Position numbers and translations under genes: made by a program. The notes below the pieces were generated by a model. It was given only the letters and a program-made list of their open reading frames with translations, had not been told where the DNA came from and searched no databases. From Granulosicoccus sp. (GTDB lineage: Bacteria; Pseudomonadota; Gammaproteobacteria; Granulosicoccales; Granulosicoccaceae), in the NCBI GenBank assembly GCA_023301795.1, contig JALZVU010000068.1, positions 1 to 46,501 of the forward strand: a stretch of DNA of 46,501 nt, written 5' to 3'. Of the stretch, positions 7,112-28,013 are shown in pieces. Each line of letters begins with the position of its first letter. Position 1 is the stretch's first letter.

Positions 7112-7999
7112 TCAGTGTGCAGTGCTTGTTATCACGTCTGGATTCAATGGAATGACAAGTCCGTCATGGCCAATGTACAGAACGCCATCCCAGTAGGGTT
7201 TTACGGCAGCTTGCCAATGCGTTTTCTTGAAGTCTGGATCGTCTGAAGGAATCAAGTGATGCAAGGCAAGTGCAGATGCTTTAGCGCGAGTGGCAAGTTG
7301 CGCCGCATCGTGTGCCAGAGTATGGGAGCGCATCCAATGTTGCCTGAGTCGATCGTCCCCATTGCCGATGCGTGCAAACAAAGCGGGTAGGGCTTCTTCA
7401 AGCATCGCTTCGTGAATGAGCAGATCGCACCCTGATGCCCAGTCGGCCAGTGCCTCCATGGGGGCTGTGTCGCCGGAAAATACTACATGGTTTTCTTCTG
7501 TTTTAAATGACAGTGCAAAACAATCGATCAGTGGAGGATGCGTGACACGCATGGCTTCAACGGTGATCGCGTGATGGTCTATTACATGACCTGCGTCGAT
7601 AACATGGATGCGTACCAGTGTTTCCAGATCAGGTCTGCCTTCATCGTTGATCCTAAGGTTGATGTCTGCCTGCATAGACTTAAGAAAACTCTCCCAGTAC
7701 AACTCCAGCCCTGGCGGTCCCCACACGTCCACATGGCTGTTCAAACCTGCTGTCCATGCGGTGTGAATCAACGGCCCCAATTCAAGATAGTGATCTGAGT
7801 GAAGATGGGTGATAAAGATCGTTGAAAGCTCTTTGAGGGCCATATGCTGGTCAACAAGTCCTCGCGTTACACCCAGTCCGCAATCAACAACGATCTTATG
7901 ATTATTCAGGCATACAAGGCTTGAGGTTGGCATGGAAGATCCGGGACGAATGGCAGGTCCGCCTTTGGTACCAAGCAACGCGACGTAGTTTCCAGTCAT
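7112..7999 (-). CDS. Metallo-beta-lactamase-fold hydrolase (RNase Z-like branch)
   Basis: The start at ATG 7999 (MTGNYVALLG) is chosen because further upstream codons fall inside the aminotransferase gene. The 295-residue product has an MBL fold: IFITHLHSDHYLELGPL carries the HxHxDH zinc motif, VVFSGDTAPMEAL the bridging Asp, and LALHHLIPSD the C-terminal His. The N-terminal LLGTKGGPAIRPGSSMPTSS loop is like that of RNase Z/arylsulfatase-type members. Its task in a homoprotocatechuate operon is not known to me; it could hydrolyse a lactone or ester of a pathway compound. It begins one base after the aminotransferase stop, so co-expression is near certain. Confidence 0.82.
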   Translation of the reverse strand: MTGNYVALLGTKGGPAIRPGSSMPTSSLVCLNNHKIVVDCGLGVTRGLVDQHMALKELSTIFITHLHSDHYLELGPLIHTAWTAGLNSHVDVWGPPGLELYWESFLKSMQADINLRINDEGRPDLETLVRIHVIDAGHVIDHHAITVEAMRVTHPPLIDCFALSFKTEENHVVFSGDTAPMEALADWASGCDLLIHEAMLEEALPALFARIGNGDDRLRQHWMRSHTLAHDAAQLATRAKASALALHHLIPSDDPDFKKTHWQAAVKPYWDGVLYIGHDGLVIPLNPDVITSTAH

Positions 8000-8000
8000 G

Positions 8001-9353
8001 TTAATCTCTGGCAGCTGCGAATCCGGCATCCAGAGCCGTGAGTATGGTGTTGGTTTCTGCTTCGGTAATAATGAGTGGCGGTGACAAGAGAATATTGGGT
8101 CCTGATATTCGCACCATGGCACCTGCCTCATAGGTTGCGTCTTGTATGGTGGCAGCGAGTGTGGCGTCAATGGGTGTTTTGGTTGCGCGCTCGCTCACCA
8201 GTTCTAGGCCGGTCATCAAACCATGCCCTCCACGAACATCACCGATAAGTTCATGTTTTTCCTGAAGTGCCTTACAGCCTTCAAACAGTTGAGTGCCCCT
8301 GGCTGCTGCATTTTCTATCACGTTCAATCGTTTGGTTTCGGCAAGGCAGGCTAGTGCTGCAGCAGCGCCCACTGGATGACCAGAGTAGGTATAGCCATGA
8401 CCAATCCTGGCAGATTTGTTACCTTCGAAAGTGTCGACCATTTTCTCGCCCAGCATCACGGCTCCAAACGGAAAGTATCCGTTGGTGATGGCTTTGGCAG
8501 TGCACATCATGTCAGGCTTTATCCCCCACAATCGCGATCCAGACCAGGCACCGGTTCGGCCAAATGCGGTGATGACTTCATCAGTAATCAGCAGGATGCC
8601 GTATCGATCGCATAGCTCGCGCACCATAGGCGCAAAGCTCTTGTGCGGAGGGATGACTCCCCCTGCGCCCAGAATGGGCTCCATGATCATCGCGGCAATG
8701 GTGCTGGCGCCTTGAAACTTGACTTCGTCGTCCAGTGCTGCGACACACAGCTGCGCAAGCTTTGCAGGATCTGTTTCATTGAATGGATTGCGGTAGGTGT
8801 AGGGTGCCGGAATATGAAAACACCCGGGCAGCAATGGTTCGTAGGCCTCGCGAAAATTGGCGTTGCCGTTAACACTGGCTCCGCCAATGTGGGTGCCGTG
8901 ATAGCCTTTTTTCAGGCTCAGAAATTTTGTTCGCCCCGATTCCCCTCGTAATTTATGATATTGCCGTGCCAGTCGTAGTGCTGTCTCCACCGAATCAGAA
9001 CCGCCAGAGGTAAAGAATGCTCTACTTAACCCGTCTGGTTCAAAGAACTCTGCGAGCTCATACGACAGTTCTATGGCGGCATCGTTTGTGGTGCCGCGAA
9101 AGATTGAGTAATACGGCATCTTTTCAAGTTGCGTGGTTATGGCGTCTTTGATGGGTTGGCAGGAGTAACCCAAATTTACGTTCCACAAGCCTCCGACACC
9201 GTCAACCACCTTGCGACCATCAATATCCTTGATGCTAACCCCGTCAGCTTCAACAATTATTTTTGGCGGTGCCGTATGACTGTCGTCGGGGGATGTCATC
9301 GGATGCCACATATGGCGGGCATTGTTTTCCTGAAGGAAGTTGGAACCTTTCAT
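8001..9353 (-). CDS. Class III (omega) aminotransferase
   Basis: A 450-residue PLP enzyme when started at ATG 9353 (MKGSNFLQENNARHMWHPMT); an upstream extension to 9443 has no family match. Typical features: WHPMT and GLWNVNLGYS substrate-site segments, FFTSGGSDSVETALRLAR phosphate-binding region, KKGYHGTHIGG, LLITDEVITAFGRTG with the PLP-pyridine Asp, and the Schiff-base Lys in CTAKAITNGYFPFG. This group covers beta-alanine:pyruvate, putrescine/spermidine and aryl-amine transaminases. It is the first gene of the hpa minus operon, so it may deaminate an amine to an aldehyde that feeds the pathway (inference). Confidence 0.88.
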   Translation of the reverse strand: MKGSNFLQENNARHMWHPMTSPDDSHTAPPKIIVEADGVSIKDIDGRKVVDGVGGLWNVNLGYSCQPIKDAITTQLEKMPYYSIFRGTTNDAAIELSYELAEFFEPDGLSRAFFTSGGSDSVETALRLARQYHKLRGESGRTKFLSLKKGYHGTHIGGASVNGNANFREAYEPLLPGCFHIPAPYTYRNPFNETDPAKLAQLCVAALDDEVKFQGASTIAAMIMEPILGAGGVIPPHKSFAPMVRELCDRYGILLITDEVITAFGRTGAWSGSRLWGIKPDMMCTAKAITNGYFPFGAVMLGEKMVDTFEGNKSARIGHGYTYSGHPVGAAAALACLAETKRLNVIENAAARGTQLFEGCKALQEKHELIGDVRGGHGLMTGLELVSERATKTPIDATLAATIQDATYEAGAMVRISGPNILLSPPLIITEAETNTILTALDAGFAAARD

Positions 9354-9556
9354 TAGCCTAATTCTCTGTAACCCAGACACGTGTGACTTGGCTTTGTTCA
9401 ATCGAGGAAGGGGTGACGCCAACCCACACGCGCAATACCGCAATCGACGGTTTTCTATGGGCTCCTAATCGAAATAGTTTGACAAATATTATTTAACAAG
9501 GCAATCTTTTTCTACAAAGTTGTTTCATAAAACGAACCAAGGCGGAAAATACTGCA

Positions 9557-10501
9557 ATGAGAAGCCCCCGATTGTTGATGATAGCGCTCGCGCTTGTGAT
9601 TGTGGGTAGCACCACTCTCGTACACGCGGAGTATCCTGAGAAGCCGGTTGAGTTCGTCGTTCCCTGGCCACCGGGTGATCTTGAAGATGTGCTCACTCGC
9701 ATGATTGCCGAGGATTTTCAGGAGGCCTATGGAGTGCCTGCTGCTGTTATTAACAAACCAGGCGGAGGCGGTGGCCCTTTCCCTGGAGCCGTTGAAGTTG
9801 CTACGGCTCCTGCTGATGGATACACCATCGGCTCTTTCATCATTGCTATACCGGTTGTGGGTCCGCAGATTGGGATACCGGAATTGAGTCCTGATCCATT
9901 CGAGCCTCTGGGGAACTTTCTGACCTATCCTTTCGTGATCGCCACATCAGGGGATGCGCCGTACGACGATATGGAGTCTCTGGCTGCCTATGCGCAAGAC
10001 AACGACGTAGTGCTGGGACATTTCGGCGCGCCATTGGTACCCACGCAGGTAACTTTCGGTCTGGCTAAGCAGATGGGCTTCTCATTTGCAGCGGATGCAG
10101 CGTTTGATGCGCTGGATTGCAATTCGTTAGCGTCGGGTGATGTGGATGTCATTAATACAACCTTGCAACAAGTCTTGCCCTGCCTTGGCTCACTTAAGAT
10201 TCTGGCATCTATTGGCGAAGAGCGTATTTCGCTGACACCTGACACTCCAACGGTTGCCGAATTGGTGCCCGAGCTCAACGTGGCATTGTGGAATGGCTTG
10301 TTTGTGCACAAGGACACTCCTCAGGACATACGCGAGAAAATTATTGCCGTAGCACAAAAGACTATGATGTCAGAGCGCGCGCAGACACTGGCCACTGAAA
10401 CGGGCGCGGCAGTCTATTGGCAAAGTGCTGATGAGGTTGTTGAGCAGATTCAAACTGATATCAAAACGCTTGGTTATATCGAGGGAGTTCTAGCCGAATA
10501 G
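9557..10501 (+). CDS. tctC: Tripartite tricarboxylate transporter substrate-binding protein
   Basis: A 314-residue periplasmic binding protein of the TctC/Bug family. It has a signal peptide (hydrophobic LLMIALALVIVGST, cleavage near VHA-EYPEKP) and the family N-terminus YPEKPVEFVVPWPPG. The conserved acyl-binding region INKPGGGGGPFPGAVEVA and ADGYTIGSF follow. It delivers a carboxylate to TctAB. The substrate is unknown; an aromatic or dicarboxylic acid used by the adjacent pathway is a fair guess. The gene is divergent from the aminotransferase operon and is followed by a perfect hairpin before tctB. Confidence 0.9.
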   Translation: MRSPRLLMIALALVIVGSTTLVHAEYPEKPVEFVVPWPPGDLEDVLTRMIAEDFQEAYGVPAAVINKPGGGGGPFPGAVEVATAPADGYTIGSFIIAIPVVGPQIGIPELSPDPFEPLGNFLTYPFVIATSGDAPYDDMESLAAYAQDNDVVLGHFGAPLVPTQVTFGLAKQMGFSFAADAAFDALDCNSLASGDVDVINTTLQQVLPCLGSLKILASIGEERISLTPDTPTVAELVPELNVALWNGLFVHKDTPQDIREKIIAVAQKTMMSERAQTLATETGAAVYWQSADEVVEQIQTDIKTLGYIEGVLAE

Positions 10502-10528
10502 TCCCGAATCTTCAAGTACCTGCTTTTT

Positions 10529-10555
10529 CAGCCCTTGATACTATTTCAAGGGCTG
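10529..10555 (+). promoter_or_regulatory. Intercistronic stem-loop between tctC and tctB
   Basis: A perfect 10-bp stem, CAGCCCTTGA (10529-10538) with TCAAGGGCTG (10546-10555), has a 7-base loop. It is followed by GTTTG rather than a T-run. It could act as a partial terminator or as a 3' mRNA stabiliser, giving more binding protein than membrane subunits. The stem is seen directly; its function is inferred from similar hairpins after other binding-protein genes. Confidence 0.6.
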
Positions 10556-10628
10556 GTTTGCAATGCTGAGAAAGCCATCGTTGTTTTGAATTAAGTTGCG
10601 TTGACGGCTTTATCTCAAGAGGTTTTTC

Positions 10629-11168
10629 ATGTCGCGAATCAAAACGCTACAATCATTATTCAAACGTTATCGTCGCCCGGGCGATATTGTGTTTGCTTGG
10701 TTTTTCTTTGTTCTATCCATTGGATTGTTGACACAGATAACTGATCAGACGGCTTACCGTGCTGGTTCAAGCATGATGGCCCAACCGCGGTTCTGGCCTG
10801 CAGTATCATTGGTGGGGATGTGTTTTTTTGCTGCACTGCACCTAGTAGGTTCTATTCTGTCCGAACGTATCGAAGGTCGCTGGAAAGAGGTCATTCTCTG
10901 GCTGTCAGTCATCGAATTTGCAGCTTGGTTCGTTGGTTACGCTTATGTTGTACCCATTATCGGCTACCTTCCTGCTACCGTTCTCGTTTCGTTGCTTCTT
11001 GTGGTTAGGGTAGGTTATCGCAGCCGCACTATTCTCTTCAGCGCTGTCGGTGTGGCGATTATCATTGTCCTGCTGTTCAAGACCTTCTTGCAAGTAAAAA
11101 TGCCAGCGGGTCAGTTCTATGATTCTCTTCCGGATGGACTTCGCCAGATCATGCTGATCTATTTCTAA
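10629..11168 (+). CDS. tctB: Tripartite tricarboxylate transporter small membrane subunit
   Basis: A 179-residue membrane protein with four hydrophobic segments: FAWFFFVLSIGLLTQ; FWPAVSLVGMCFFAALHLVG; a pair around AAWFVGYAYVVPIIGYLPATVLVSLLLV; and FSAVGVAIIIVLLFKTFL. Size and arrangement fit TctB. An AAGAGG ribosome-binding site precedes the ATG. It ends 12 bases before tctA and would form the TctAB membrane complex that imports the ligand of TctC with a cation gradient (family knowledge). Sequence conservation in TctB is low, so the call relies partly on position. Confidence 0.85.
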   Translation: MSRIKTLQSLFKRYRRPGDIVFAWFFFVLSIGLLTQITDQTAYRAGSSMMAQPRFWPAVSLVGMCFFAALHLVGSILSERIEGRWKEVILWLSVIEFAAWFVGYAYVVPIIGYLPATVLVSLLLVVRVGYRSRTILFSAVGVAIIIVLLFKTFLQVKMPAGQFYDSLPDGLRQIMLIYF

Positions 11169-11180
11169 CGGGGATATCAC

Positions 11181-12698
11181 ATGGACAATTTACTCGCGGG
11201 GTTGGAGCTACTGGCGCGATGGGATGTGCTGTTTGCGCTTCTGGTGGGTTCGATAGGGGGTGTCATAATTGGTGCTATTCCAGGGGTGGGTCCAGCAGTG
11301 GCCATTGCTATTCTGCTGCCTGCAACGTTTTCCATGGATCCGATTGTGGGTCTGACGATGCTATTGGGCATCTATGGATCATCCATGTATGGAGGTGCTA
11401 TACCTGCAGTATTGATAAACACGCCGGGCACAGCTGTCAATGCACTAACCTCTTATGATGGCTACCCAATGACTGAACGAGGCGAGGCACATCGTGCCGT
11501 CTCACTCGCTTATAGCGCATCGTTCTGGGGGGGGATGTTTGGTATTGTATGTCTGATCCTTTTGTCGCCTGTTCTAGCTAAAATTGCACCGATGTTTGGT
11601 AGTCGTGAGATATTTCTTGCAGCGCTTCTGGGAATTATTCTTGTCATCCTGGCGCATCGAGGGCAAATTTTTGCTGCTGGTATGTTGGCCATGTTCGGCA
11701 TCTTTCTCCAGACCATTGGATTGGATGCGGTAACCTACACGCAACGGTATACGTTTGAAATGACGTTTCTGACCTCAGGCATAAATCTCATTGTTGTGGT
11801 GTTGGGGTTGTTCGCGTTAAGTCAGGCATTTTTTTTGCTCACAGCGCCTGATGAAAAGCCGGAAGCTAAACCGGTTATCGGAAAAATGAGTGCTGGGTTC
11901 AAAGAACTACTGAAGCACAAGCGCGTTGCTACCGTTGCTTCGGGCTTCGGTGTCATATTGGGAATGATTCCTGGTACCGGAGAATTTACAGCTCAGTTCA
12001 TGAGTTACACCTATGCGCAAAAGACTTCAAGTACTCCGGAAGAATTTGGGAAAGGTTCCCCGGAGGGGCTGATCGCTTCAGAGGCCGCAAATAATGCGGT
12101 ACCCGCTGCTGCCATGATTCCACTGTTGGCGTTGGGTATTCCGGGTGAAGCCCTGACCGCGATGATGTTGTCAGTGTTTTATGTACACAACGTGATTCCC
12201 GGGCCGCAGTTGTTTCAAAACAATATCGACCTTGTGTATGGGCTCTACATTGCACTGTTGGTACTGAATATCATGGTCATCTGCTTCTTGATGTTCTCAA
12301 CAAATATTCTGACAAAAATAATTCGTATCCCTACACGGTTTCTAGGCGTGATGATTCTTGTATTGTCGTTAGTCGGCGTGTACTCACTCCGAAATTCACT
12401 GACAGATTGTATGATTGGTGCTGCATTCGGTGTCTTTGGTTTGATTCTGAAGCGATTAAATCTGCCTATTGTGCCCATCATTTTGGGGATGGTTCTGGGT
12501 GGGATTATGGAAGTAAAGCTTCGTTCGGCCTTGCCTCGATTGAAGACACCCTTGGACATGATTGATCGACCGATAGCATTCATCATTTTTGTAATGATTA
12601 TCGTGGTTTTGGCATTACACATACGCACTCTGATCAAAGAATATCGCGCACGCCAGCCACAAGAAGATAACGCCATTCACGATTCCCAAACACGTTGA
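11181..12698 (+). CDS. tctA: Tripartite tricarboxylate transporter large permease
   Basis: A 505-residue polytopic membrane protein of the usual TctA length. The two family glycine-rich motifs are clear: GAIPGVGPAVAIAILLP near residue 30 and GMIPGTGEFTAQFMSY near 255, with SMYGGAIPAVLINTPGTA and LIASEAANNAVPAAAMIP, the latter LALGIPG region being typical. About ten to twelve hydrophobic helices are present. It forms the transport channel with TctB. The next gene, an aldehyde dehydrogenase, starts at ATG 12704 five bases after the stop, so it is probably in the same transcript. Confidence 0.93.
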   Translation: MDNLLAGLELLARWDVLFALLVGSIGGVIIGAIPGVGPAVAIAILLPATFSMDPIVGLTMLLGIYGSSMYGGAIPAVLINTPGTAVNALTSYDGYPMTERGEAHRAVSLAYSASFWGGMFGIVCLILLSPVLAKIAPMFGSREIFLAALLGIILVILAHRGQIFAAGMLAMFGIFLQTIGLDAVTYTQRYTFEMTFLTSGINLIVVVLGLFALSQAFFLLTAPDEKPEAKPVIGKMSAGFKELLKHKRVATVASGFGVILGMIPGTGEFTAQFMSYTYAQKTSSTPEEFGKGSPEGLIASEAANNAVPAAAMIPLLALGIPGEALTAMMLSVFYVHNVIPGPQLFQNNIDLVYGLYIALLVLNIMVICFLMFSTNILTKIIRIPTRFLGVMILVLSLVGVYSLRNSLTDCMIGAAFGVFGLILKRLNLPIVPIILGMVLGGIMEVKLRSALPRLKTPLDMIDRPIAFIIFVMIIVVLALHIRTLIKEYRARQPQEDNAIHDSQTR

Positions 12699-21945: not shown

Positions 21946-23865
21946 ATGAAAACTTATCGTAGGAACGTTGGCAGTGCGTTGAGCCTGTCACTGCTGGCAA
22001 TGAGTTCGATTGCATCTGCAGACTGGAATCCCCAGCCTGGGTGGAAAGACAGCTACGCAGTTGATGGTCGTTGTTATTGTGATAGCAGTAATTACGACCA
22101 CAACCTTGGCAGCAAGAGCGCAGACACACCGCTTGGTAGTAAGAATGTTGTAGAGATATGTAATGACATCAAGGATAAGTTAGGCACCGGTCCGGAGGAC
22201 GGCCGCATTCCTTATAACGATATTCAATGTGGTCATGGCCCAGCCAATGATGCAGCTGATGAAGCGGGTTGCCCTGGTAGAGTTGATATTGGTTCCGCAG
22301 GGTGTGATGTCAAAGGGCCTCGCTGGGATCTTCAAGCAGTGTATGGCGATACGTCCGAGCCACCTGTTACTGAGCCCAAGACACCATCAATTCCTGATGT
22401 ACCTGATGTACCTGATGTACCTGATGTACCTGATGTACCTGATACGCCTGATACGCCTGATACGCCTGATACGCCTGATACGCCTGATACGCCTGATACG
22501 CCTGATACGCCTGATGTGCCTGCACCTACTGAGCCTACCGCTGGTGAAAGCTGCTCTGCTCTAAGCACCGTTGGTGCTTCTCTTGATGCCGCTAAAGAAC
22601 AGTTTGTTCAGGATTGCCCTGGTCAGGAGCGACGTGATTGCGATCCAGTCAGCGGTGATCGTTGGTTATGTTCTACCGATGCTATAACGGCGGCGACCCC
22701 GTTAGAACCTGCGCCAGAACCGGAACCTACACCGGAACCTACGCCAGAACCTACGCCAGAACCTACGCCAGAACCTACGCCAGAACCTACGCCAGAACCT
22801 ACGCCAGAACCTACGCCAGAACCTACGCCAGAACCTGAACCGATTGTACCGACAAGTGTTGTCTGTGAAGCGCAAGGATCAAGCCTGGGCGCAGCAATAC
22901 AAGCTTATGCCAACGCGTGCCCTAATATACCCAGAGTTGACTGCGATCCAGTTGCAGACGGGGAGTGGACATGTAGCTCTGGAGTCATTGGTGATGCAGC
23001 ACCAGATACGGTAGCGGAGGTGGACCCTGAACCAACTCCGGAAGAACCTACGCCGGAGGAGCCAACTCCTGAGGAGCCTACGCCAGAAGAACCTACGCCA
23101 GAAGAACCAACTCCTGAAGAGCCCGAAACCCCAACTACCGGCGATGCTATCGGCAGAGTTGGCGTAAATGATCTGGTATCACTCCACTATGACAATTGCC
23201 CTGACCGTGATGATGGCCACGCCATAGCGTCCGGTAAGGCTGTTGTAGTTGAGACAGGTCTATCTAACTTTATGGTAGTCAATGGAACTTGTGCCGATAG
23301 TAAGCGCAGCAATTATCAGGAAAGTAGCGAAGCGGTTGTGCGAGCAAGCTGGGGTAGCGAGTGGCTTGATTATGCCAACGATGAAGATGGAACCATCAAC
23401 ACGACGACAGAACGTTGGTCAGCGGTACTGGCCAATGGCGGCGATGTGTGGGTTGCCGAAGGTGGTCCATCTGATTTCACAGCCAAAGTACTTCGCCAAA
23501 TTGACAGTCAGTTTCCTTCACTGAATCTTGAAAATGTGCATGTTGTTCAACACAGCACCGGGGACGCCTTCAATGAGGCAAGTACTGAAAGGAGCAACAT
23601 AGCTTTTATCCAGAATGAGGCAGACTATGTCCCTATCGCAAACGGCAACGGGGGTGGCAATGGTACGGCAGGATTCAGAAATAACTCATCGTTCTTCGTT
23701 GAAACTGCACTGCAGAGTCAATTTGCCAGTGAATGGAACGCGGCGTTTGATTACCTGGATCCTAACGAACGCCTCGACTTCAGCGATACCGTGGAGCTCC
23801 TGTACATAATCGATGAGACAGAAACGCAAACGGTAGATGACTTCGCACGTCGATACCTCCAGTAA
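21946..23865 (+). CDS. Secreted modular protein with Pro/Asp and Pro/Glu repeat linkers
   Basis: A 639-residue protein, not recognised. A signal peptide (LSLSLLAMSSIASA-DW) is followed by a Cys-containing domain (about 25-145), then a PDV/PDT linker (about 150-191). Cys-rich module A follows (about 199-244, SCSALSTVGASLDAAKEQF...CDPVSGDRWLCS), then a PEPT linker (258-297). Module B (about 303-345, VCEAQGSSLGAAIQAY...CDPVADGEWTCS) is a clear copy of A. A PEEPT linker (361-393) leads to a 240-residue C-terminal domain. That domain begins with LHYDNCPDRDDGHAIASGKAV and contains VWVAEGGPSDFTAKVLRQI; the Asp cluster and the AEGGPSD strand loosely recall nucleoside-hydrolase-like folds. Secreted or surface location is likely. 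A good AAGGAG site precedes the ATG. Confidence 0.8.
   Translation: MKTYRRNVGSALSLSLLAMSSIASADWNPQPGWKDSYAVDGRCYCDSSNYDHNLGSKSADTPLGSKNVVEICNDIKDKLGTGPEDGRIPYNDIQCGHGPANDAADEAGCPGRVDIGSAGCDVKGPRWDLQAVYGDTSEPPVTEPKTPSIPDVPDVPDVPDVPDVPDTPDTPDTPDTPDTPDTPDTPDTPDVPAPTEPTAGESCSALSTVGASLDAAKEQFVQDCPGQERRDCDPVSGDRWLCSTDAITAATPLEPAPEPEPTPEPTPEPTPEPTPEPTPEPTPEPTPEPTPEPTPEPEPIVPTSVVCEAQGSSLGAAIQAYANACPNIPRVDCDPVADGEWTCSSGVIGDAAPDTVAEVDPEPTPEEPTPEEPTPEEPTPEEPTPEEPTPEEPETPTTGDAIGRVGVNDLVSLHYDNCPDRDDGHAIASGKAVVVETGLSNFMVVNGTCADSKRSNYQESSEAVVRASWGSEWLDYANDEDGTINTTTERWSAVLANGGDVWVAEGGPSDFTAKVLRQIDSQFPSLNLENVHVVQHSTGDAFNEASTERSNIAFIQNEADYVPIANGNGGGNGTAGFRNNSSFFVETALQSQFASEWNAAFDYLDPNERLDFSDTVELLYIIDETETQTVDDFARRYLQ
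22393..22518 (+). repeat. 9-bp tandem repeat array, 14 units
   Basis: Five copies of CCTGATGTA are followed by eight of CCTGATACG and one of CCTGATGTG, all in frame, encoding (Pro-Asp-Val)5(Pro-Asp-Thr)8 Pro-Asp-Val. The copies are identical at DNA level within each block, suggesting recent expansion by slippage. Unit length is a multiple of three, so gain or loss keeps the frame. Confidence 0.95.
22717..22836 (+). repeat. 12-bp tandem repeat array, about 10 units
   Basis: Eight perfect copies of ACGCCAGAACCT run from 22741 to 22836, preceded by two variant copies. They encode repeated Thr-Pro-Glu-Pro, a proline-rich spacer between two duplicated Cys-rich modules. Confidence 0.95.
23029..23124 (+). 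repeat. 15-bp imperfect tandem repeats
   Basis: About six 15-base units of the type GAAGAACCTACGCCA, with synonymous changes between copies, encode Glu-Glu-Pro-Thr-Pro. Unlike the two arrays upstream, the copies have diverged at third positions while the protein repeat is kept, so this array is older or under selection for its amino acids. Confidence 0.9.
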
Positions 23866-23932: not shown

Positions 23933-25825
23933 TTACGTTTTTGACGTTCTCGTTGACTTGAAGAATGTAGTCATATTGCTAAGCTCGTCAGCCTCGCTAC
24001 TTAATAGGCCACCAGCATTTGTAAGCTTGTCCACGAGTGCAGAGTTAGCGCTGGTTGCCTGATTCATTTCGGCAATGGTGTCACTCACATGGCCAATACT
24101 TATACTCTGCTGTTCGCTGGCGGTAGCAATTTCATTGACCAGGTCCGAAACTTTTGTAACCTCTGTGACTATCTGGCTAAGGGTGTCACGTGATCTATTT
24201 ACAAGTTGGGTACCTAGCTCGACTTTCCGGTTACTATCGATAATCAAATCCTTAATTTCACTGGCAGCTTCTGCACTTCGGCCTGCAAGGCTGCGCACTT
24301 CACTGGCGACTACCGCAAAACCTCTACCACTCTCCCCAGCTCTTGCTGCCTCTACAGCTGCATTGAGTGCCAAAAGGTTAGTTTGAAAAGCAATCTCGTC
24401 TATAACACCAATGATGCTTGAAATTTTGTTGCTCGAATTGTTAATATCTGTCATGGCTGCAACAGTGCTTGCTACCACTTTGCTACTGTCTTCTGCTTGT
24501 ACTTTGGCTGTTTGAGCTAGGTCGTTCACTCGCATGGCGTGACTAGTATTTTGTTTGACGGTTGCAATTAGTTCGGTAACTTTGGCTGCAGTATCATTCA
24601 AGCTTCCAGCTTGCCGCTCTGTATTCTTGCTCAGATCCTGATTTCCTCTGGAGATCTCTGAGGCGCCTGATTTTACTGTTCTAGCTGCCGACTGAATTTT
24701 GCTAACTACGCCAGTCAGTTGATTTATCATTTCGTCGAGGGAAGAGAGAAGTTGTCCAGTCTCATCTTTTGATTTTATTTCTATATCCTGATTCAGCTCA
24801 CCGTTCGCGATCCCATTGGCAACGGCTACGGTATTTTGAATAGCACGCTTTATTTTTCGGGTTACGAAGATGGCTGGAATCATTCCTAGAAAAAATGCAA
24901 TGCCAGTAGTCACTATCACGCTTTTGACAGTGGCTCCCACCGTTTCCTCAACACTGCGGCCACTTTCAGTGAGACCATGCCACACCTCACTCTGCTGTCT
25001 CAGTGCCAGTGCTTTGATAGATTCGATTTCCGATACCATTACACTGCTGAAAGCTTCGTTTCTAGTATTTATTGCAACAACAATCGTATTGAAGTTGCGA
25101 GAGAAGCTATCGAATTTGGTTTTAGCGTCCTTTGTTAAAGTCAGTCGTCTGGGTTCACGAACTAACTTCGCCAAATCATAGAGTGCATTGTCAGCACCAA
25201 GAAGCTGCATCTCAACACGTGAAGCATCCGTAGCAGAATTACTAAGTAAAAATTGACTAACAAAAATTCGTGCCGTCTGAAACGATCGTAAGGCCAAGTT
25301 TGCCGAGATGACAACCGCTTGCTTATCATCAGAGCGGGCGGTTGCAATGGTATCGGTAAGGGACTTTACAATGTTGGGTCCCACCACTTCCAGTAGGCTT
25401 TGAGCTGTAGCGGTAGCAAGTTCGTTGTTTTGAACAACAGTATCGAGAAAAGTTTGGGAGTAAATAGCATCTCGGTTTTCAATATCCGTAAGCAGATCCC
25501 TTTGAATATCGTTGTCGACAAATTCTTTTGATTTAAGGATCTTCCTGAAATTGTCAGCAATAGAATTGGCTTCGCTACGCAAGTTCGTGAACTTTTGCAC
25601 TAAGGCATCATCGTTGGTTTGCAAGTAACTTCGTACCAGCATCTCTCGTTCCATGAAATTTTGCATTTGTGCGGTACTTTCACTGGCTTCGGGAGTGAGT
25701 ATTCTAGTGACTACTTTTATGCTGGTATCGATATCTGTCAAGCGCGTTATCACCATTGCGCTAAGTCCCATCATGAAAAGTGCAACAATTAACGGCAGTG
25801 AAAGTATTTTCTGAGATAGTGCCAT
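23933..25825 (-). CDS. Methyl-accepting chemotaxis protein
   Basis: A 630-residue transmembrane receptor. TM1 is at residues 8-28 ([18 protein letters not shown]), followed by a helical periplasmic sensor domain to about 300. TM2 follows ([19 protein letters not shown]), then HAMP (about 325-380). The cytoplasmic signalling domain has the hairpin tip [45 protein letters not shown]. It would signal to CheA/CheW. No che genes are in the window and no C-terminal NWETF-type CheR tether is seen. It is 30 bases downstream of a secreted repeat protein gene on the same strand, so the two are probably co-transcribed and may work together. Confidence 0.93.
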
Positions 25826-25855
25826 GGAATATCTACTCGAATTCAGAATTGCAGA

Positions 25856-26794
25856 TTATTTAGTTGCCGCTTCAACCCATCCTGTGGAGTTACGGTCATT
25901 TGTTGCTGCTAATATCGGTTTCAGATGTGCAGAAATCAGAAGCATCTGGTCAAACACAGCATCAGGGTTTTTTCCTAAGGGAATTGCTTGTGTGTGCTTC
26001 ATTGTCTTGATTCCAAGCGCAATCTTCACTCTCACTAGTTCTGCAAGAATTGTTTTTGTCGTGTCCAAGGCGTCATTCGGGGTAATCTTGCCAGGAGGGA
26101 ATGGGGATGGACTTATCGGAGCCACATCTAAGTGTCTCTGAAGGCGTCCTATCTTGTGTAACGTTTTATATGCCTCTATATTGACATCTTCGGGTGTTTT
26201 TGTTCCGACGCGCAGCGCAGCGTTTTGCTTGTCAATATCAGCGCCTAAGTTTTCTGAGATGAGCGATAACTCTTCCAAAATGTATTGCGTATTCAGGAAC
26301 ACTTCGTTAGGTGAGGTCTGTCCAGCCAGTGCGTCAAGCAGGTAAGATGCTTTCCACATTATTTCGTATACATCTGACGGACCTTTGCCCGCTATAAAAG
26401 AAACTGTTTTCCGCGAATATAGTAAGTTTTGAAATTTACGAATTCTGGACAGTTCGGTCAATATCAAATCAGCCTGTTCATATACCTCACTAGGCGTCAC
26501 ATTCCTTAAGGGTATCTGATTGGTATTTACTCTTTCCATGTCGATAGAATCTTGATAACGTCCAATTTTCTCGATGACTTCCAAAGACTTTGAGTAGACG
26601 TGAAGCGGACGTTTGTTTGCTTGAACTCCAGGCTCTCTAGCTGTGGTTGATATATTTTGTGCTTCACGAATTGCTGATATTTCCACCACGATTTGCTGTG
26701 CCTTTTGAAAGACATGGCTCGGGGTAATTTGTTCTTGCGCCCACGACGTGGCTGAAAATATTAGTAGCGTGGCGGTTGCGAGAACTATTTTCAT
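25856..26794 (-). CDS. Secreted protein with eight alternating helical repeats
   Basis: A 312-residue protein, not recognised. A signal peptide (MKIVLATATLLIFSATSWAQ) is followed by eight short repeats starting near residues 23, 60, 99, 137, 160, 199, 237 and 275. Odd repeats follow ITPSxVFxxAxxIxxELxxIR; even ones follow KxPxDVYxxxxxxLxKIGRLQ. The unit is therefore a pair of about 75 residues present four times. Each repeat reads as a turn (TPS/GPS) plus an amphipathic helix, suggesting a small helical solenoid in the periplasm. It lies directly upstream of a chemotaxis receptor gene with a 30-base gap; a ligand-binding partner for that receptor is an inference. No catalytic motif is visible. 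Confidence 0.75.
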   Translation of the reverse strand: MKIVLATATLLIFSATSWAQEQITPSHVFQKAQQIVVEISAIREAQNISTTAREPGVQANKRPLHVYSKSLEVIEKIGRYQDSIDMERVNTNQIPLRNVTPSEVYEQADLILTELSRIRKFQNLLYSRKTVSFIAGKGPSDVYEIMWKASYLLDALAGQTSPNEVFLNTQYILEELSLISENLGADIDKQNAALRVGTKTPEDVNIEAYKTLHKIGRLQRHLDVAPISPSPFPPGKITPNDALDTTKTILAELVRVKIALGIKTMKHTQAIPLGKNPDAVFDQMLLISAHLKPILAATNDRNSTGWVEAATK

Positions 26795-26804
26795 AAAATT
26801 ACGG

Positions 26805-26942
26805 CTACTGTTGTCTATTTTGTAAAGCTAAATTACTGACAGACCATGAGATACGGTTTGTGAGGCGCGAGCCAATAGCAAGCTCTGTGAGTACCAGCGA
26901 GTTTGAAATTTCGCGTGATCTAATCAAATTTCTGTTCTGCAT
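26805..26942 (-). CDS. Possible small ORF upstream of the repeat protein
   Basis: A 45-codon frame (starts MQNRNLIRSREISNSL) ends 10 bases before the start of the secreted repeat protein gene. The open frame continues about 19 codons upstream of the ATG to a TGA. Composition is protein-like with two amphipathic stretches, but there is no recognised family and no convincing ribosome-binding site. It could be a leader peptide, a remnant, or chance. Confidence 0.2.
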   Translation of the reverse strand: MQNRNLIRSREISNSLVLTELAIGSRLTNRISWSVSNLALQNRQQ

Positions 26943-27543
26943 TTGGTTGGCTAGAGCTACGACCTGTTTGAACAGTGAACGGTCATTTGAGCCATAACTT
27001 CACTGGTTAAAGGTATATTTTTGAGAAGTAAATGGTTATATATGCGTGCAAGGTGTTAATTAGGATTGGGGTGGACAGGTAACTACGTGAAATCTTGAAT
27101 CATGTTCAAAGTGCATGCCAGAACAAGCTCAGACTATCGTTACGAAGAGAAGAAGATGAGATCAAACACACATGTTATTCACGACCCAGGTTTAGCTCCA
27201 CGGCTATGAGTTGATGAAGCTTCTTACCGATGGGAGTTGTAATGGCGTTGCGAAATATTGTGTTGTTCAACATCAGATGTTGGTAGTCGGATACTGATTG
27301 TCCGTCTATACACTTTGACAAGAACAGTTTTGCGAGTTTTGACAATTTGGCCAGTTTCAGCTGCGAGGAACACCCATGGCAGGTGCAAATTTTCACATTT
27401 TGTAGATTACTCTCCTGCAAAACGCTACATGCTATTGCACTGTGTGTTCCGATATGGATAGGCACGCCATGTCACGCAGGTGATCTTGGATTGACACCTA
27501 GTCGCGTCTTTGGGCTATGGACTTCTATAATTCCATTTTATTA

Positions 27544-27864
27544 AAGTTGTCTGATATAGATGCAAGTGACCAGGGTATATCGGATCGTATGGCGGCCCTG
27601 GATGTCCAAAGTGTAAACAGTATGAAACCAGCAGATGTCCTTGAGCAAGCAGTTAGCTTTTGAAAACAGTCGGATCTGTTTTCGAAGTATGCTGGAATAG
27701 CGTCTACTGGATAAGATGCGCGAGTTAAAAACACCAAAGAGGCTACCGGAACTGACCAATCAAATGCTGATCAAGCCAGTGAGGCGGCAAGGGAACTTGA
27801 CGTGTAGCCAACCTCTCTGGAACGCCTAGTCAATCAGTTTCGGATCTCTGGCAATCTGACGTAG
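27544..27864 (+). pseudogene. Decayed C-terminal tail of a methyl-accepting chemotaxis protein
   Basis: Read in one frame from 27544, the sequence gives a typical MCP tail (EATGTDQSNADQASEAAREL then PTSLERLVNQFRI near the end) broken by in-frame stops at about residues 40, 56 and 85. No upstream signalling domain is present, so this is a remnant and not an active gene. The conserved tail is not a copy of the intact receptor at 23933-25825, whose tail reads differently, so it came from another receptor gene. Confidence 0.75.
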
Positions 27865-27961
27865 AGTATTTATGGTGCGTGGTAGGTAAGCTCGGCAATG
27901 ATCAAGTGTAGGGACTTGTCGATGTGCTCACGATGCTGAGCAGCGGGTTGAGTCAAGAGGT

Positions 27962-27986
27962 AAGCTGACCTGAGTAGGTCAGGCTT
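27962..27986. terminator. Hairpin downstream of the isomerase gene
   Basis: AAGCTGACCT and AGGTCAGGCTT pair across a GAGT loop with one bulged G. It lies 28 bases past the stop of the minus-strand isomerase gene. There is no T-run, so a terminator role is only suggested by position. Confidence 0.35.
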
Positions 27987-28013
27987 GGTCCGAACTTCTA
28001 GATTTCACTTGAA

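Follow-up and report, generated by a model that had tools for sequence, protein, structure and literature searches.

A family of exported helical-repeat proteins encoded beside bacterial membrane sensors: candidate periplasmic co-sensors

The window analyzed here, a 46,501-nucleotide stretch of DNA from Granulosicoccus sp., encodes an exported helical-repeat protein next to a chemoreceptor (MCP). The family of the repeat protein, which comprises exported bacterial proteins that are all-helical, had not been listed before; its genes nearly always neighbor that of a membrane sensor, a linkage that is strongly supported. Because this linkage survives a change of output type, the simplest reading, to which we assign a probability of roughly 0.7, would be that the membrane sensor encoded next to the repeat protein uses it as a soluble co-sensor in the periplasm. 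Judged from this gene linkage, the repeat protein probably works as the partner of the neighboring sensor outside the cell.

Both open reading frames were located on the same strand and with the spacing that the earlier note had described (Table 1). No terminator-like site is listed between them and, since a 30-base gap is too short for a terminator, the two genes likely form one transcript. Their G+C contents are 0.435 (repeat protein) and 0.443 (MCP), compared to 0.50 for the whole window. The repeat-protein family was absent from 35 other genomes searched (26 from the same genus and 9 from the same family), which also yielded no close copy of the MCP sensor domain; the two thus appear to come and go together, and their low G+C content and joint absence from relatives fit a gain of the pair as a unit. 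Across positions 24000–28000, which span the gene pair and a gene-poor upstream stretch, G+C is about 0.42–0.46, against 0.49–0.53 on either flank; this composition is consistent with an acquired insert.

Table 1. Coordinates of the gene pair and its domains in the window.
Feature	Positions	Strand	Evidence
Repeat-protein gene, 312 aa, exported, helical repeats	25856-26794	-	ORF; no Pfam/NCBIfam/PDB match; homologues by profile
Signal peptide, residues 1-19, SxA site after residue 19	26738-26794	-	Simple scan
First four-motif domain copy, residues 23-157, motifs at 23, 61, 99, 137	26324-26728	-	Self-alignment, profile, AlphaFold helices 25-45, 63-83, 101-121, 139-157
Second four-motif domain copy, residues 160-306, motifs at 160, 199, 237, 275	25877-26317	-	Self-alignment, profile, AlphaFold helices 162-183, 201-221, 239-260, 277-311
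Intergenic gap, 30 bases, repeat-protein gene to MCP gene	25826-25855	-	ORF coordinates
MCP gene, 630 aa	23933-25825	-	PF00015 2.9e-52, PF00672 (HAMP) 1.2e-8
MCP periplasmic sensor domain, about residues 30-297, helical bimodular (HBM/TorS) fold	24935-25738	-	AlphaFold pLDDT 87; fold matches; related domains in other repeat-protein-paired MCPs
HAMP domain of MCP, residues 320-371	24713-24868	-	Pfam
MCP signaling domain	24056-24526	-	Pfam

The repeats are real: the best ungapped self-match of the protein scores 104, whereas the highest score among 200 shuffles was 54. The motifs, eight in number and each about 25 residues long, have a start resembling [T/S/K]-x-P-x-[D/E]-V-[Y/F] and are spaced by 38, 38, 38, 23, 39, 38, and 38 residues. 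The motif resembles a helix N-cap (T/S-P-x-D/E), and no ligand site is evident in it. The strongest self-match offset is 138 residues, which indicates a duplicated domain; the two copies of this approximately 138-residue, four-motif domain (residues 23–157 and 160–306) share 26% identity (BLASTP E = 1e-13). Repeats were found at the protein level only and not in the DNA of the gene, pointing to an old duplication. The eight helical repeats of the earlier note are therefore borne out, whereas its arrangement in four tandem odd/even pairs holds only in part. Odd motifs are mutually alike (mean score 39.7), but even motifs resemble one another barely more than mixed pairs do (12.7 versus 11.9), the exceptions being R2–R6 (41) and R4–R8 (22). 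A four-motif domain present in two copies is the cleaner description than four equal pairs.

Export, too, had been claimed for the protein and is supported by a predicted signal peptide, called from a hydrophobic segment and an AxA-type site in a simple scan rather than by a dedicated predictor; the sequence lacks both a lipobox and a second hydrophobic stretch, and it has no cysteine beyond residue 30. Structure prediction of the repeat protein alone, proposed earlier as a check, gave eight helices in the AlphaFold model (15 family members; pLDDT 89.5, pTM 0.86), and the shorter, 23-residue spacing that separates motif 4 from motif 5 points to a pair of domains instead of a single continuous solenoid. 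Foldseek returned nothing for this model at E ≤ 0.001, and the best Z score in VIA-align was 5.2, a level that is uninformative for helical bundles. The fold matches in the PDB, to the central helices of fumarase/aspartase (Z about 5), fall below the chance level for helical proteins and were rejected. No sequence match to solute-binding proteins of the TorT/LuxP type was found in Pfam or the PDB.

Sequence searches of Pfam, NCBIfam, PHROGs, and the PDB returned nothing useful for the window protein, nor did Pfam, NCBIfam, and the PDB for 15 members of its family. Matches of single members to NCBIfam or Pfam entries at E values of 0.01–0.1 were dismissed as chance, and a lone DUF1512 match (0.0025) is equally isolated. 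Single-sequence searches against relatives, genome contigs, plasmids, the PDB, and PHROGs likewise yielded nothing convincing beyond the repeat protein itself. The family was opened by a two-row profile built from the protein's own halves, which detected relatives in 22 of 369 genomes of its class. Within the scope of the survey, the Pseudomonadota, a 15-member profile extended the family to 33 of 398 genomes of the phylum and recovered relatives in 22 of 48 genomes of one distant class. Profile matches reach 1e-37 with the same two-domain layout, which is common to nearly all full-length members; a form of approximately 630 residues holds four domains. Named hosts include Alteromonas sp. a30, Endozoicomonas sp. 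G2_1, a Cellvibrionaceae MAG, and Pelagibius sp. Two weak profile matches of 616–620 residues (L052 and L054) have no signal peptide, contain several cysteines, and align over about 60 residues; they were discarded as false. None of the libraries searched lists the family, and no fold match to it could be detected, helical proteins giving uninformative scores in such comparisons. No description of a periplasmic helical partner of this kind was found in the open-access literature, although one may exist elsewhere.

Homologues were picked by profile or sequence pattern only, blind to genomic context, and their neighborhoods therefore constitute an independent test. The context set comprised 61 members, after removal of the two false matches, a duplicate (L059), and two members at contig edges (L112 and L113). 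Sensor calls were based on similarity to six query domains, with Pfam confirmation for the partners scanned. An MCP, histidine kinase, or GGDEF gene lies directly downstream, on the same strand and within 200 bp, in 50 of 61 cases (82%), many of them within 20 bp or with an overlap of 4. For genes taken from randomly chosen stretches of these genomes, the corresponding figure is 2 of 327 (0.6%); the Fisher P value is about 1e-49, inflated by related rows. A paired member occurs in about 27 of 29 family-level lineages. The family thus presents an exported partner encoded together with a sensor. According to Pfam, the partners are MCPs, hybrid kinases with HK_sensor/dCache, HAMP, GAF, receiver, and Hpt domains, and one GGDEF protein. 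The survey of co-occurrence called for previously hence supports a partnership with sensors, which are neighbors far above the control rate, and corrects its scope, the partner not always being an MCP. Homologues lacking an MCP neighbor, which the earlier note had named among the grounds for abandoning its idea, do occur; the sensing-pair idea survives in this wider form.

In eight of the remaining members, the gene resides in a tight signaling operon of another arrangement or beside a truncated or split sensor. An MCP gene is found 11–14 bp upstream of the repeat gene in L123, L124, and L125; the same reversed order was noted in L127. In L056 and L057, the repeat gene directly follows the genes of a histidine kinase (CHASE-type for L056) and a response regulator. 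A kinase-like neighbor is cut by the contig end in L104 and L117, and the neighboring MCP of L046 (8338–10196) is split into two reading frames by a frameshift or assembly error. Only three of the 61 (L039, L040, and L053) are orphans without a sensor neighbor. On a tree of 59 members, a quick reconstruction with several long branches, partner type is clustered, with 7 label changes compared to a mean of 20.4 after shuffling, and at least 3 switches between MCP and histidine kinase partners. The window protein falls into a supported group of 13 that contains ten members paired with MCPs, two with kinases, and one orphan.

The window MCP has the signaling domain, HAMP domain, and N-terminal periplasmic domain of its class, both Pfam matches being over the cut-off. 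Its periplasmic domain of about 265 residues has no match in Pfam. The AlphaFold model contains six long helices, the number from which HBM domains build their two stacked four-helix bundles. Its closest fold match is the ligand-binding domain of McpS (2yfa; Z 20.5, rmsd 1.9, 230 residues), followed by TorS (Z 17.4) and PilJ (Z 17.3); the LytS domain of the XylFII–LytS complex matches with 15.7 over 122 residues. As the MCP has no PF16591 profile match at E ≤ 1, the domain is referred to as an HBM-like fold and not as a member of the Pfam HBM family; a related gene in L038 matches PF16591 weakly (6.7e-4). Related sensor domains occur in other MCPs paired with the family (L032, L033, L060, L120, L035, L058, L061, and L049, and partially L034). 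More distant HBM-type MCPs stand alone, and the notion that an HBM-type receptor domain implies a repeat-protein partner was ruled out accordingly. With 16 MCPs over the cut-off, CheW-domain proteins, and flagellins encoded in the host genome, a working receptor is plausible.

Several known systems provide a frame for these observations. In TMAO sensing, TorT, a protein of the periplasmic-binding-protein type, binds the two-bundle helical sensor domain of the kinase TorS. In pairs of the LuxP–LuxQ type, a periplasmic protein (LuxP being a binding protein of known fold) hands the signal to a double-PDC/dCache-type sensor, whereas the chemoreceptor McpS binds malate and succinate directly. The window pair shares with TorT–TorS an exported partner, a transmembrane sensor, and the TorS/HBM fold of the periplasmic domain; it differs in that the repeat protein is all-helical, consists of duplicated four-motif domains, and has no match to TorT, and in that the output is an MCP rather than a kinase. 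Many kinase partners of the family carry HK_sensor/dCache domains, reminiscent of LuxQ, but no homology between LuxP and the family was found. McpS and other HBM chemoreceptors (PF16591) resemble the window MCP in sensor-domain fold, and differ from it in the missing profile match and in the pairing with a repeat protein. As with maltose-binding protein and Tar, a periplasmic protein is proposed as the input of an MCP; in contrast to that type, in which the partners are transport binding proteins that are usually unlinked (3 of 11 linked, PMC11113362), linkage of the repeat family is near-constant, and the window pair has no directly accompanying transporter genes. Tight gene linkage is found for 10 of 11 known kinase/binding-protein pairs, as opposed to 3 of 11 chemoreceptor pairs (PMC11113362). 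TorS and LytS are driven by the partner proteins TorT and XylFII (PMC6381276, PMC8534201), periplasmic TorT being the known input of TorS (PMC8534201). Pairs of a periplasmic partner and a transmembrane sensor are thus already known; it is the partner family that had been unlisted. The best reading would be that transmembrane receptors have in this family a new kind of periplasmic co-sensor, similar to TorT–TorS yet with an unrelated helical protein.

Based on these comparisons, a simple model would begin with production of the repeat protein and the receptor from one transcript and export of the former via its signal peptide. The exported protein would contact the periplasmic domain of the receptor, and a change in the partner, caused by ligand binding or an envelope cue, would be passed to the receptor's helical bundle, HAMP domain, and signaling domain, and from there to the CheA/CheW pathway. 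We infer that the partner carries the signal, and the same applies to a ligand and to the direction of signaling. It is important to note that the sensor folds of MCP partners (HBM-like) and kinase partners (HK_sensor/dCache) differ, so that a single conserved contact is not obvious. The three orphans also speak against a co-sensor role, as do the direct binding of small ligands by HBM domains such as that of McpS and the lack of a repeat protein beside more distant HBM-type MCPs. More generally, and with confidence only slightly better than even, we propose that in many Pseudomonadota the family is an exchangeable input module, replacing the usual binding proteins, for MCPs and diguanylate cyclases as well as for hybrid histidine kinases.

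Alternatively, the repeat protein may bind a macromolecular or surface cue, such as the cell wall, a pilus, or another envelope structure, and report a mechanical or envelope state rather than bind a small ligand. This possibility is clearly less probable than a co-sensor, but it is the foremost alternative: no binding-protein fold was found for this all-helical protein, PilJ, which is related, likewise senses through a domain made of helices, and the four-domain forms of about 630 residues before kinases (L036 and L114–L117) are what an extendable adaptor might show. Against it, no wall-binding or pilus motif was seen, and 15 members gave no Pfam match. A protein devoted to folding or stabilizing the outer domain of the receptor, be it a periplasmic chaperone or a structural subunit carrying no signal, would account equally well for the strict gene linkage and deep co-inheritance, and for the lack of an evident ligand site. 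We regard it as unlikely, given that at least two unrelated folds occur among the sensor domains of the partners and that related HBM receptors do without a repeat protein.

Published cases exist in which adjacency was misleading as to function, among them an adjacent binding protein and kinase without interaction (PMC11113362), and together with the three orphans this leaves some room for operon history alone having made the genes neighbors of a protein with a separate envelope function. Such an explanation is improbable in light of linkage that is kept over about 27 family-level lineages, although the flanking genes are otherwise unrelated and the sensors have three types of output. That the genes are chance neighbors, or the family an artefact of repeats and weak homology, could be suspected from single-sequence BLAST, which returns only the repeat protein itself; the strength and shared layout of the profile matches (down to 1e-37) and the gap between 82% and the 0.6% control rate already contradict this notion, and it deserves next to no credence.

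The inputs of most bacterial sensors are unknown, and the family is attached to dozens of MCPs and kinases. As co-sensors, its members could account for why the paired sensors would fail in ligand screens that use the sensor domain in isolation, and would offer a handle on their stimuli. Next to the binding proteins already known as receptor inputs, they would constitute an unrelated, helical class, with one partner type used with three output types (MCP, histidine kinase, and GGDEF).

Further arrangements were observed in individual loci. The four-domain forms precede kinases of about 1,100 residues where the next gene is complete. In the distant class (L094–L111), the repeat gene resides in an operon with a hybrid kinase of about 1,370 residues; a CheB–CheR fusion was seen in the one operon scanned, and a CHASE3 membrane protein is encoded just upstream in some. 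The L038 operon (7821–12157, minus strand) encodes a phosphonate-type binding protein, an HBM-like membrane protein without an MCP domain, an unknown 322-residue protein, the repeat protein, and a hybrid kinase. In the window itself, a plus-strand gene (21946–23865), convergent with the MCP gene, encodes a 639-residue protein that looks exported and carries long low-complexity runs of PDxPD and PTPEPTPE; the protein's sole Pfam match is low-complexity.
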